NCBI RefSeq assembly: GCF_900111195.1
Contig: NZ_FOGL01000001.1
Location: 310,001 to 374,000, forward strand
Direction of reading: 5' to 3'
Origin: Gracilibacillus ureilyticus
Lineage (GTDB): Bacteria > Bacillota > Bacilli > Bacillales > Amphibacillaceae
Length of the DNA stretch: 64,000 nucleotides
This document shows positions 5,957 through 52,390 of the stretch, piece by piece (the stretch's first letter is position 1; each line of letters opens with the position of its first letter). The position numbers and the translations under genes are program-made. The notes beneath the pieces are model-generated. The model was not told where the DNA came from, made no database searches, and saw nothing but the letters and a program-made list of their open reading frames with translations.

Positions 5957-6095
5957 GATCTTCCTCACTTAATGTTAGTCCGAACATTAAATCATCTTCT
6001 TTTAGCGTTCGGTTTAAACTATCAACAATTTTATACAGATCTTCAGAATAATTAATCTTCACTGTGGATAGTGTAATAATTTTTGATTGATTCAT
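5922..6095 (-). CDS. ypmA: YpmA-like small protein (DUF4264)
   Basis: This 57-residue acidic protein has no membrane segment and no known biochemical role. It is recognised by size, the central KINYSEDLYKIVDSLN segment and its conserved place before ypmB-aspB. The frame opens with a TTG at 6110, but the TTG and following codons form the GGGGGTG ribosome site, so the ATG at 6095 is taken as the start. Its 3' end overlaps tseB. Confidence 0.78.
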   Translation of the reverse strand: MNQSKIITLSTVKINYSEDLYKIVDSLNRTLKEDDLMFGLTLSEEDHEKAVFTIYRT

Positions 6096-49104: not shown

Positions 49105-50073
49105 ATGAAAAAACTGATTGTTATACATACTGGTGGTACCATCTCCATGCAGCAAAATGAGGAAGGAACTATTGAACCATCAAAACAGCATCCATTATCG
49201 AACCTGAATGAAACTAAGGATGTCCCTATTCACGAAATAGAGTTCTATAATTTACCATCGCCTCATATTAAACCGGAACATATGTTGAAATTATCCGATT
49301 TTATTAATGCACTATTAGCTGAAAATGAGGATATAGCAGGTATCGTTATCACACACGGAACGGATACATTGGAAGAAACAGCATACTTCCTTGAACTAAC
49401 CTGTAAATCTCCTTTACCGATTGTTTTAACAGGAGCTATGAGACCAAGTAATGAAATCGGCACAGATGCAATATATAATTTTCAATGCGCGGTTCGCGTT
49501 GCAACTAGCAAGGAAGCTATCCACTCTGGTGTGCTTGTAGTAATGAATGACGAAATACACTCTGCAAGATATGTTACAAAAACTTCTACAAGTAATGTTG
49601 CTACTTTTAAAAGTCCGCCGTTTGGCCCATTAGGATTAATCCACAAAGACAAAATTATATTTTATCAAAAGTACCTCTATTCCGATAAATATACAGAAAT
49701 ACATGAGATTACCAAGGAGGTACATCTATTTAAAGCATACACCGGTATGTCTAATATTTTATTTCAACATTTAAATAAAAACAATACCAATGGAATTGTG
49801 ATTGAAGCTTTTGGACAAGGAAATCTGCCTCCAGACGTTGTTCCAGTGCTGGAAACACTCCTGCAGCAGGGGATTACCATCGTTATTGTGTCAAGATGTT
49901 ATAACGGAATTGTACAGCCAATGTATGATTATGAAGGTGGTGGAAAGAATCTCCAAAATTCAGGAATGATATTTACTAACGAAATTAATGGACCAAAAGC
50001 AAGGTTGAAGCTTCTGCTGCTGCTTCAAAAAGGAGCAGCAGCAGAAGAGATTCAATCCGCTTTTCAAGAGTAG
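49105..50073 (+). CDS. ansA: L-asparaginase, type I
   Basis: It hydrolyses asparagine to aspartate and ammonia. Catalytic threonines lie in HTGGTIS (near residue 8) and THGTDTLEETA (near 90). There is no signal peptide, so it is cytosolic. The ribosome site AGAGGTGA is well placed. A possible extended -10 (TGATAAAAT) lies in the 49-bp gap shared with divergent prsW. Its last 25 codons contain a very strong inverted repeat. In B. subtilis asparaginase genes are elsewhere. Confidence 0.94.
   Translation: MKKLIVIHTGGTISMQQNEEGTIEPSKQHPLSNLNETKDVPIHEIEFYNLPSPHIKPEHMLKLSDFINALLAENEDIAGIVITHGTDTLEETAYFLELTCKSPLPIVLTGAMRPSNEIGTDAIYNFQCAVRVATSKEAIHSGVLVVMNDEIHSARYVTKTSTSNVATFKSPPFGPLGLIHKDKIIFYQKYLYSDKYTEIHEITKEVHLFKAYTGMSNILFQHLNKNNTNGIVIEAFGQGNLPPDVVPVLETLLQQGITIVIVSRCYNGIVQPMYDYEGGGKNLQNSGMIFTNEINGPKARLKLLLLLQKGAAAEEIQSAFQE
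50011..50047. repeat. Perfect 14-bp inverted repeat inside the 3' end of ansA
   Basis: Arms 50011-50024 and 50034-50047 are exact reverse complements, with a 9-nt spacer that can pair further. They encode a leucine run and an alanine run. No T-tract follows on either strand, so it is not a standard terminator. Confidence 0.75.
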
Positions 50074-50077
50074 ATAA

Positions 50078-51058
50078 TTAAGATAATTTACGCTTTATGG
50101 AGGATGCAATTTGTCCTCCATGGAACCTGCCATTCTCTATAAAGATCTCATTATTATCATAACCTGCAGCAATTACTCCTGCGATGTAGATATTTTCCAC
50201 ATTGGTCTCCATCGTATTTTCATTAAAGTTAGGTCTTCCTGTTTTTGGGTCAACAGTTATCCCCATATTCTTAAGAAACTGCTGATCTGGCTGGTATCCT
50301 GTCATTGCAAAAACATAATCATTTGGAATAGACTTAGAAGAACCATCAACTTCATATATAACTGATTCTTTTGTTATCTCTTTAACATTCGCTCTAAATT
50401 CCATTAGTATTTTGTTATGTTTGATAAGTGAGACAAATTCAGGTAAAATCCATGGTTTTACACTAGGAGAATAGTCATTTCCTCTGTATAAAACAGTGAC
50501 ATTTGCCCCAGCTTTATGCAATTCAATCGTTGCATCTACCGCTGAGTTCTTTCCGCCTATTACTACTACATTTTTATTATAATAGGGATGTGCTTCCTTA
50601 AAATAATGAAATACCTTACTCAGTTCCTCCCCTTTGATATTAAGTAAATTCGGCTGGTCGTAGTACCCTGTTGCAATTACCACAAATTTAGTAGAATACT
50701 CTTTATGGTTACCGTTCGAATCAACTGATTTTACTTGAAAAGCCCCTGTTTGCTCCTGGACCGATACTACCTTTTCAAAGTTATTGATTCTCAGATCTTT
50801 ACGCTGTGCAACAGTACGATAATATGCTAATGCCTGATTCCTGACAGGCTTCTGTTTTTCAGTAACAAATGCCACATCACCAATTTCCAACTTATCACTG
50901 GAACTGAAGAAAGTTTGGTGTGTAGGATATCGATAGATGGAATCAACAATATTTCCTTTTTCTATTATAAGTGGTTGTATTCCTAAATTTTGCAATTCAA
51001 TGGCAGCAGACATTCCACATGGTCCTGCACCTATAATTATCACTGTTTCTTCCTGCAT
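50078..51058 (-). CDS. ypdA: Bacillithiol disulfide reductase YpdA
   Basis: This FAD/NAD(P)H flavoprotein of the thioredoxin-reductase-like family shows IIGAGPCGMSAAIEL at the N-terminus and VVVIGGKNSAVDATIEL in the NADPH domain. It lacks a CxxC pair, as known for YpdA, which reduces oxidised bacillithiol. With bshA in the same window this supports a working bacillithiol system. It converges on ansA with only four bases between stops. Confidence 0.93.
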   Translation of the reverse strand: MQEETVIIIGAGPCGMSAAIELQNLGIQPLIIEKGNIVDSIYRYPTHQTFFSSSDKLEIGDVAFVTEKQKPVRNQALAYYRTVAQRKDLRINNFEKVVSVQEQTGAFQVKSVDSNGNHKEYSTKFVVIATGYYDQPNLLNIKGEELSKVFHYFKEAHPYYNKNVVVIGGKNSAVDATIELHKAGANVTVLYRGNDYSPSVKPWILPEFVSLIKHNKILMEFRANVKEITKESVIYEVDGSSKSIPNDYVFAMTGYQPDQQFLKNMGITVDPKTGRPNFNENTMETNVENIYIAGVIAAGYDNNEIFIENGRFHGGQIASSIKRKLS

Positions 51059-51086: not shown

Positions 51087-52322
51087 TCAAAGCCATCCTC
51101 TGTACCTTATCGCTTCTGCTTGATTTTTCATTCCGATCATATAACTCGCTAAATACATATTGATATTTTTCTTTAAAGAAGTATACTTGGCCTCTTTAAT
51201 TGCAAGATGTATAATATCTTTAAAATACTCCTCTATCTCTTTATCTGTAAACTTTTTGCCTTGTTTGTACTCCAACCATTCCAGATAGGCATATACAATT
51301 CCTCCATTGGTTGCCAATACTTCCGGAACCATTTCTATGCCTCTACTGTGCAAGTGGTTAATTGCTTCCTGGTCTAACGTATTATTCACCGTTTCTACAA
51401 TAATTGATGTATTCAACTTTTTAGCAATATTTACATTAACTTGTTCCTGTTTTGTTGTTAAAATAAGTAAATCACTTTCTTTTTCCATAAATTCATCTAT
51501 CGAAATTGATTCATCAATAAATCGCGTGACAATACCGAAATGGTCTTTCTGTTTTAATATTTCTGGTATATTAAGACCATCCGGATGATAAACTGCATTT
51601 TGAGGATCGGAAATTCCCACTACTTTCACACCTGAATCATTTAACATCCGGGCTAAGTAGCTGCCAATGTTACCTGTACCGTGTATCATCACTTTTGTTT
51701 CCTTTAGCGGCAGGTTGTATTCATCAATCAATGCATGAATCGTATGATAAACACCTTGTTCTACAGCTGTCTGTTTATTGTTAATACCTCCAAGTACAAA
51801 AGGTTTCCCGGCAATAAAATTTGGATTCATTCCTGTATGTAATCTGCTGTATTCATCCATCATCCATGCCATCATTTGCGGATCGACAGCAGCATCTGAT
51901 GAAGGAATATCTATATTCGGTCCGATAATATGGTGGATGGACCTGATATATCCTCTGCATAGCCTTTCTGATTCTCTGAAAGATAACTCCCTTAAATCAC
52001 ACACTATTCCCCCGCTGCTTCCGCCAAGTGGTATCTGTAAATTACTTGATTTTACACTTCTCAATATAGCCAAGGCAGCAATCTCTTCTTCTGTAATATT
52101 TGGTCTAAAATGAACATTTCCCTGGGTAACCCCAAATACATCATGGTGCTGAGCACGGTATCCCGTAAAAATTTTCACCGAATCATCATCCATTCTTACA
52201 GGAAAACGGATTCTCATTATTCTCGTTGGTTCTTTCATTAGTTGATATACTTCGTCAGGATATCCTAACTGATCCAGTACATCTTTCATCATTGATTGAA
52301 GATGTTCATAACTGCTTCTCAA
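51087..52322 (-). CDS. Glutamate dehydrogenase-like protein lacking catalytic residues
   Basis: The 411-residue protein aligns end to end with GudB/RocG and sits where B. subtilis has gudB, next to ypdA. The NAD-binding GTGNIGSYLA is intact, and the active-site Asp is kept (D143). But the catalytic Lys of the GGGKGGI motif is Ser103 (GGSSGGI), the substrate Lys of the KGGIR motif is Gln67 (TQGNV), and the glutamate-contacting Ser near the C-terminus is Ala345. K91 is kept. It is unlikely to be a glutamate dehydrogenase. The start is TTG with AGGAGTG upstream, and a good promoter precedes it, so it is probably expressed. Confidence 0.85.
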   Translation of the reverse strand: MRSSYEHLQSMMKDVLDQLGYPDEVYQLMKEPTRIMRIRFPVRMDDDSVKIFTGYRAQHHDVFGVTQGNVHFRPNITEEEIAALAILRSVKSSNLQIPLGGSSGGIVCDLRELSFRESERLCRGYIRSIHHIIGPNIDIPSSDAAVDPQMMAWMMDEYSRLHTGMNPNFIAGKPFVLGGINNKQTAVEQGVYHTIHALIDEYNLPLKETKVMIHGTGNIGSYLARMLNDSGVKVVGISDPQNAVYHPDGLNIPEILKQKDHFGIVTRFIDESISIDEFMEKESDLLILTTKQEQVNVNIAKKLNTSIIVETVNNTLDQEAINHLHSRGIEMVPEVLATNGGIVYAYLEWLEYKQGKKFTDKEIEEYFKDIIHLAIKEAKYTSLKKNINMYLASYMIGMKNQAEAIRYRGWL

Positions 52323-52361
52323 TAAGTTTCACTCCTAATGCAAAAAAATGCCACTTTAATC

Positions 52362-52390
52362 ATTATACTATTTTATATTCTCGTTGTGAA
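52362..52390 (-). promoter_or_regulatory. Sigma-A-type promoter for the GDH-like gene
   Basis: The minus strand reads TTCACA (52385-52390), a 17-bp spacer and a perfect TATAAT (52362-52367), about 40 bases before the TTG start. Confidence 0.65.

Follow-up and report, generated by a model that had tools for sequence, protein, structure and literature searches.

The window analysed here is a stretch of 64,000 nucleotides from Gracilibacillus ureilyticus (contig NZ_FOGL01000001.1, positions 310,001 to 374,000 of the forward strand), which contains on its minus strand a gene coding for a protein of the glutamate dehydrogenase (GDH) family, followed closely by ypdA. The features of this region are given with their positions in the window; "orthologues" denotes the seven intact members found in the host genus, including the window gene itself.

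50078..51058, minus strand: ypdA, coding for a member of the putative bacillithiol disulfide reductase family (TIGR04018, 458.8 bits at a cut-off of 339.9)
51087..52322, minus strand: gene for a GudB-derived protein without the GDH catalytic residues (411 amino acids, TTG start)
52332..52336, minus strand: ribosome-binding site AGGAG, 9 nt before the TTG codon; AGGAG is present in 7/7 orthologues, as judged by eye
52362..52390, minus strand: sigma-A-like promoter TTCACA-17-TATAAT, matching the consensus at 11 of 12 positions

An earlier note on this DNA had described the frame as intact and of full length, and indeed the open reading frame at 51087-52322 runs over 411 codons from a TTG initiation codon without any internal stop. 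Both Pfam ELFV domains score above their cut-offs in the encoded protein (136.2 and 145 bits), which can be aligned gap-free across 404 columns to RocG (PDB 3k92, 393.6 bits) and GudB (PDB 7mfm, 393.3 bits) of Bacillus subtilis. Its AlphaFold (AF2) model, obtained with a pLDDT of 90.3 and a pTM of 0.88, finds a DnaK-GudB model, phosphinothricin dehydrogenase (another member of the GDH family), RocG and GudB as its top matches among solved structures, and shares the fold of B. subtilis GudB and RocG (PDB 3k8z, 7mfm, 3k92) with TM values of 0.87-0.95 to the chains compared. The two ELFV domains and the GDH fold are thus present.

Gene order and the probable operon with ypdA

The gene is surrounded by what we take to be sleB, prsW, ansA, cotJABC, ypbE, recQ, ypbB and fer, and ypdA starts 28 nt downstream of it. 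Within the flank examined, ypdA is also found downstream and on the same strand in 28 of the 32 canonical gudB loci, a sample which does not contain the B. subtilis locus, and the window gene is therefore regarded as gudB by position, as proposed in the earlier note. An origin from an ancient paralogue other than GudB was judged unlikely from the same gene order. As a counterpoint, the rooted tree places the clade formed by the seven orthologues and a related protein from another genus (G119, see below) outside the sampled canonical GudBs, which may be an effect of the long stem of this clade (1.14).

The adjacency to ypdA is ancestral, and only the shortened gap between the two genes is new. 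In the 28 canonical loci, gudB and ypdA are separated by 81-682 nt (median 140), and a simple hairpin rule, applied to the window and the canonical loci alike, recognized terminator-like hairpins in 18 of these 28 gaps. The corresponding distances are 17-43 nt in the seven orthologues (17 in G008, 23 in G003 and 28 in the window) and 24 nt in G119, i.e., below the canonical minimum in 8/8 cases, and no terminator-like site was detected on the minus strand between positions 49900 and 52800 of the window. The promoter recorded in the earlier note exists with the sequence and spacing given there. A promoter scan of the region was not enriched over shuffled sequences (14 sites vs. 12.1 expected), and an assignment from the scan alone was therefore rejected; the weight of the promoter comes only from its recurrence, since a box of the same form, TTCAC[A/T]-17 nt-TATA[A/C]T, is recognizable by eye upstream of 6/7 orthologues. 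As judged from the short gaps in all eight cases, the missing terminator and the promoter-like boxes upstream, the window gene and ypdA are probably transcribed together as a two-gene operon.

Replacement of active-site residues and remodelling of the protein

The positions at which the protein differs from, or agrees with, the functional residues of canonical GDHs are as follows.

52122..52124, minus strand: codon 67, Gln replacing a substrate Lys; Gln in 7/7 orthologues, His in G119, Lys in 23/23 canonical rows of the alignment
52059..52061, minus strand: codon 88, Arg replacing the canonical Met; Arg in 7/7 orthologues and G119, Met in 23/23 canonical rows
52050..52052, minus strand: codon 91, conserved substrate Lys retained; Lys in 7/7 orthologues, G119 and 23/23 canonical rows
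52014..52016, minus strand: codon 103, Ser replacing the catalytic Lys; Ser in 6/7 and Cys in 1/7 orthologues, Ser in G119, Lys in 23/23 canonical rows
51894..51896, minus strand: codon 143, conserved catalytic Asp retained; Asp in 7/7 orthologues, G119 and 23/23 canonical rows
51288..51290, minus strand: codon 345, Ala replacing the substrate Ser; Ala in 7/7 orthologues, Ser in G119 and 23/23 canonical rows

The equivalences of Q67, S103, D143 and A345 had been assigned by eye in the earlier note and are confirmed by the gapless alignment with RocG and GudB, which places no lysines at 67 or 103; its suggestion to look for orthologues with the same substitutions led to proteins with Q67 and A345 in all seven cases and with Ser (six) or Cys (one) at 103. 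In the alignment, the surrounding motifs change from GPTKGG in the canonical proteins to GVTQGN at position 67, from GGGKGG to GGSSGG at position 103, and from TVSYFEW to VYAYLEW at position 345. The NAD-dependent GDHs GudB and RocG of B. subtilis therefore contain K, K, and S where the window protein contains S, Q, and A, and all five of the functional residues (K/K/K/D/S) are retained in the 22 canonical GudB loci that rank within the top 30 matches of the family search. The lysines at 67 and 91 and the serine at 345 presumably participate in substrate binding; the newly acquired R88 is located three residues N-terminal of K91.

In the mechanism outlined for AtGDH1, Lys102 primes the water and Asp142 serves as the base (PMC7326016). 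The distance between S103 and D143 amounts to 40 residues, the same as between Lys102 and Asp142 of AtGDH1, so that the mapping of the two positions fits this mechanism, and the absence of a Lys102 equivalent removes one of the described steps. The same study names R70, H72, T185, N216, and N312 as cofactor contacts (PMC7326016). Assigned by motif, the equivalents of R70 and H72 are H71 and R73 among the orthologues, while the nicotinamide-site residue Thr185 corresponds to Val or Ile at position 187 in 7/7. The two asparagines of this site map to variable positions, namely 218 (for Asn216), with Asn in 1/7 orthologues, and 313 (for Asn312), with Asn in 4/7, and the window protein itself retains both N218 and N313. 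Compared with B. subtilis GudB and RocG, cofactor contacts are changed in the window protein, and across the orthologues all five positions are either changed or variable. The nucleotide-binding motif GTGNIG, which had been described as retained, is kept in part, but its Asn occurs in only 1/7 orthologues and one of them reads GSGAIA; D239 at the end of the second Rossmann strand is retained in 7/7. Judging from these replacements, the loss of GDH catalysis by the known mechanism is very likely.

A comparison with 108 sites that are invariant across 23 canonical and four distant GDHs shows that 52 of them are kept by all seven orthologues, 36 are lost by all, and 20 are mixed. The losses go beyond those listed in the earlier note. 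At 17 of the 36 lost sites, one new residue is common to all seven orthologues, and G119 agrees with the new residue at eight of these 17 (G69N, R71H, M88R, P142S, R183K, A289T, N293E, and D334E), in addition to having S103. At the same time, the mean pairwise identity among the seven orthologues is 0.63, vs. 0.88 among the canonical GudB rows, so that these proteins from one genus are mutually more divergent than canonical GudBs from different genera. This divergence is unevenly distributed: 85 of 155 sites in domain I are invariant in the seven orthologues, vs. 113 in the canonical rows, and 35 of 153 in domain II, vs. 89 of 153. As far as can be read from these alignments, domain II is much less constrained than in canonical GudBs.

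The segments forming the old active site are invariant at 32/44 positions in the seven orthologues, vs. 128/367 elsewhere, and the difference persists within domain I (26/37 vs. 59/118, p 0.04), changing to 21/37 vs. 47/118 (p 0.09) if G119 is included. Canonical GudBs are also more conserved in these segments (36/44 vs. 219/367), and the segments were picked after the alignment had been viewed, so that the test is a supportive rather than a clean one. With this qualification, the conserved segments suggest a pocket that is still in use.

Distribution, descent and selection

Among 17 genomes of the host genus, seven contain intact orthologues, one a split copy (G001) and two relics (G010 and G007), while no orthologue was found around ypdA at E <= 1e-3 in the remaining seven. 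The six other intact orthologues are 58-77% identical to the window protein. The relic in G007 is a weak C-terminal match (E 2.3e-4), whereas that in G010 (L142:6406-6561) consists of matches to residues 39-54 and 374-411 lying side by side, with an intact ypdA downstream, an arrangement best read as the outcome of a large deletion. On contig C87 of G001, the GDH-like gene is not alone in being split, as ansA and prsW beside it and also gltC are affected in the same way; the frameshifts are therefore probably assembly errors (indels) without real decay, and G001 was set aside as a proof of decay. With the gene split, present as a relic or not found in 10/17 genomes, many species do without it.

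A profile of the seven orthologues scored at least 778.7 bits in all seven when searched against 159 genomes from 46 genera of the family, 535.7 bits in G119, which is one species of another genus, and at most 484.1 bits for the next among the matches listed. An evenly drawn set of 397 genomes from the order, with up to four candidates scored per genome, gave no listed match above 477.8 bits except those in G000 and G003. The gene of G119, a sister form from outside the host genus, is located at the same locus and carries the motifs GITHGNVHF and GGSSGG (H67, S103), with the substrate Ser retained. A further open frame at this locus (L190:5401-6198), located between cotJA and the GDH-like gene, codes for a 265-aa protein that looks metallophosphoesterase-like by eye. 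The seven orthologues and G119 form a single clade with a support of 100, and the branching of the seven within the gene tree is identical to that of a species tree built from seven proteins of the locus, which has weak nodes (51, 55) and no firm root of the genus; the ypdA codon tree alone places G003 differently. The pattern looks like vertical descent with several losses.

A scan of named genomes returned 80 loci with a best identity of 42% (Paenibacillus ehimensis). The GudB-like proteins of P. oleatilyticus, P. tyrfis, and P. elgii (L035-L037, L042) have Met where the catalytic Lys is expected (GGGMGG) in 4/4 loci, and thus differ from the window protein in their substitutions as well as in their position on a separate tree branch (L035-L037); they are an independent case. 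In three of these four loci, Gln replaces a substrate Lys in the motif S-I-Q-C-G (the search text was unmatched in L042), whereas both lysines are still found in P. ehimensis (L034). The matches in the four loci start at locus position 6001, and other open frames belonging to the GDH family, of 429 and 458-479 aa, are present in each of the genomes concerned.

The ratio of nonsynonymous to synonymous changes (omega) is 0.066 for the window gene across the seven orthologues (0.103 in an earlier fit) and 0.044 for ypdA from the same genomes (0.072 in the earlier fit), with synonymous sites being saturated in many of the orthologue pairs; the closest pair, G009 and G006, shows a dN of 0.063 and a dS of 0.67 (ratio 0.095). 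The window gene is under purifying selection, which is somewhat weaker than that on ypdA. The earlier note had named relaxed selection and frameshifts in close relatives as signs against a retained protein, and the evidence is divided in this respect, with the low omega on one side and the split, relic or missing copies in 10/17 genomes on the other.

Possible functions of the GudB-derived protein

A second GDH gene in the genome, as searched for at the suggestion of the earlier note, does exist, and even two were found: both further ELFV genes contain GPYKGG and GGGKGG, one coding for an NADP-type GdhA of 453 aa (799.8 bits, cut-off 536) and the other for a GDH-like protein of 475 aa, for which no NCBIfam GDH model reaches its cut-off. 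They are located on other contigs, and their products share 31% and 23% identity with the window protein. The genome also encodes GltC (494.8 bits, NCBIfam cut-off 350), whose gene adjoins gltA (identified by Pfam), and gltB, as recognized by eye; the genes needed for a GltC regulator of the GudB/RocG type are therefore present. According to published work, GltC is bound by both GudB and RocG, and GudB by GltAB (PMC10938345). Within the genus, GltC exceeds the cut-off in 16/17 genomes and is partial in the remaining one, and GltA occurs in 16/17, whether or not the window gene is present, which makes their co-occurrence uninformative as a test of a GltC model. The GltC-like control considered in the earlier note is thus possible, and gains nothing from the distribution. 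In three genus members without the window protein (G002:C1:1702434-1704765, as well as G012 and G014), a second regulator of the GltC family, scoring over the cut-off, adjoins a second GDH gene.

Catalytically inactive proteins of the GDH family are already known. A close precedent by description is GdhA of Thermus thermophilus (PDB 3aoe), which is characterized as a catalytically inactive, regulatory subunit working in a hexamer with GdhB (PMC9570180). The window protein is homologous to chain 3aoe_E (E 1.6e-57), which we take to be GdhA because a figure legend assigns chain A to GdhB (PMC9570180), and resembles it in the loss of catalysis within a GDH fold, as far as residues indicate. For a protein of this type we expected a close catalytic paralogue, and none is found in its own genome (31% identity at best). 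Another case likened by description is YwlG of Staphylococcus aureus, whose GDH-like hexamer interacts with a different protein, HPF, and which, as its authors suggest, may be a pseudoenzyme; by their own account it is only distantly GDH-like (PMC9522360).

The best explanation of these data is that of a positional gudB orthologue which has lost the GDH chemistry and is kept for another job. We regard it as highly probable that the protein is no glutamate dehydrogenase and has been retained for a function, and this part of the earlier proposal of a retained pseudoenzyme stands, with purifying selection observed and GDH activity very likely absent on the evidence of the residues, although many species do without the gene. 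The explanation draws on the residue losses in 7/7 orthologues, the re-fixed sites, the omega value, the clade shared with G119, and the upstream box in 6/7, and is weakened by the presence of GltC regardless of the gene, the losses in 10/17 genomes, the high divergence, the relaxed domain II, and an omega above that of ypdA (0.066 vs. 0.044). That the protein is a ligand-gated regulator, rather than a new enzyme or a plain scaffold, is our tentative preference, held at somewhat less than even confidence. Such a protein would still assemble as a hexamer of the GDH type, bind a small, negatively charged ligand in the rebuilt pocket around K91, the new R88 and their neighbours without turning it over, and relay this signal by protein-protein contact, as GudB and RocG do with GltC and GltAB. 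Its partner might be the glutamate-synthesis machinery, with gltC and gltA being present, or something tied to YpdA, which is conceivable from the probable common transcript with ypdA. A ligand-binding regulator descended from the role of GudB and RocG towards GltC would be the simplest account, with a new enzyme as a serious rival.

Conservation of the rebuilt pocket would be expected of a sensor and of a new enzyme alike. The protein may have been rebuilt for another reaction using D143, S/C103, H71, R88, and K91, possibly with no NAD-dependent hydride transfer involved, as could be argued from the above-average conservation of the old active-site segments, the 17 re-fixed sites and the retention of D143, K91, and D239 in 7/7; however, the Ser or Cys at the position of the catalytic Lys, the lost and partly variable equivalents of the nicotinamide contacts and the relaxed domain II make this reading an unlikely one. 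A regulatory subunit of a mixed GDH hexamer, suggested in the earlier note as hetero-oligomers with the true GDH, has a precedent in the T. thermophilus GdhA/GdhB system (PMC9570180), and the 475-aa GDH type is found in 6/8 carriers of the window gene (counting G001) vs. 2/9 non-carriers. This count is uncorrected for kinship, scores the 73% complete genome G008 as lacking the 475-aa type, and includes a match in G009 with two stop codons in the stretch searched. Moreover, the potential partners in the own genome are only 31% and 23% identical and encoded on other contigs, and G013 (99% complete) contains the window gene without the 475-aa type, the nearer paralogue. With no close catalytic partner found in its own genome, a mixed hexamer becomes less likely and is considered improbable.

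The two remaining readings fare worse still. A decaying pseudogene or dispensable leftover might be suspected from the relic in G010, the weak C-terminal relic in G007, the absence from seven other genomes and the split copy in G001, but the G001 frameshifts are probably assembly errors, and an omega of 0.066, intact frames at 58-77% identity, the re-fixed sites and the upstream box in 6/7 orthologues are at odds with decay; this reading is largely refuted by the selection analysis, and we would be very surprised if it held. Equally small is the chance that the protein is still a glutamate dehydrogenase with substitute residues doing the work: it has kept the fold, D143, and K91, but the catalytic Lys, one substrate Lys, the substrate Ser, and several cofactor contacts are jointly lost in 7/7.

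Catalytic inactivation of GudB in place, combined with a re-fixed pocket and close pairing with ypdA, was not encountered in a literature search, nor was any title on a GudB-derived pseudoenzyme, within a coverage lacking most subscription journals. A more specific form of the retained-protein explanation, in which the wholly re-specified pocket serves to sense or convert some ligand that is not glutamate and the protein is wired to YpdA via the new two-gene operon, appears doubtful at present; if true, a dead enzyme would have come to connect nitrogen metabolism with the control of thiol redox state. Irrespective of the ligand, the rebuilt pocket provides a target for a ligand search by direct binding assays. 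The locus may further be viewed as a natural experiment, in which a moonlighting enzyme lost its chemistry at its own locus and was kept in some species and lost in their sisters, and a comparison of species with and without the gene could separate the role of GudB as an enzyme from its role as a protein.
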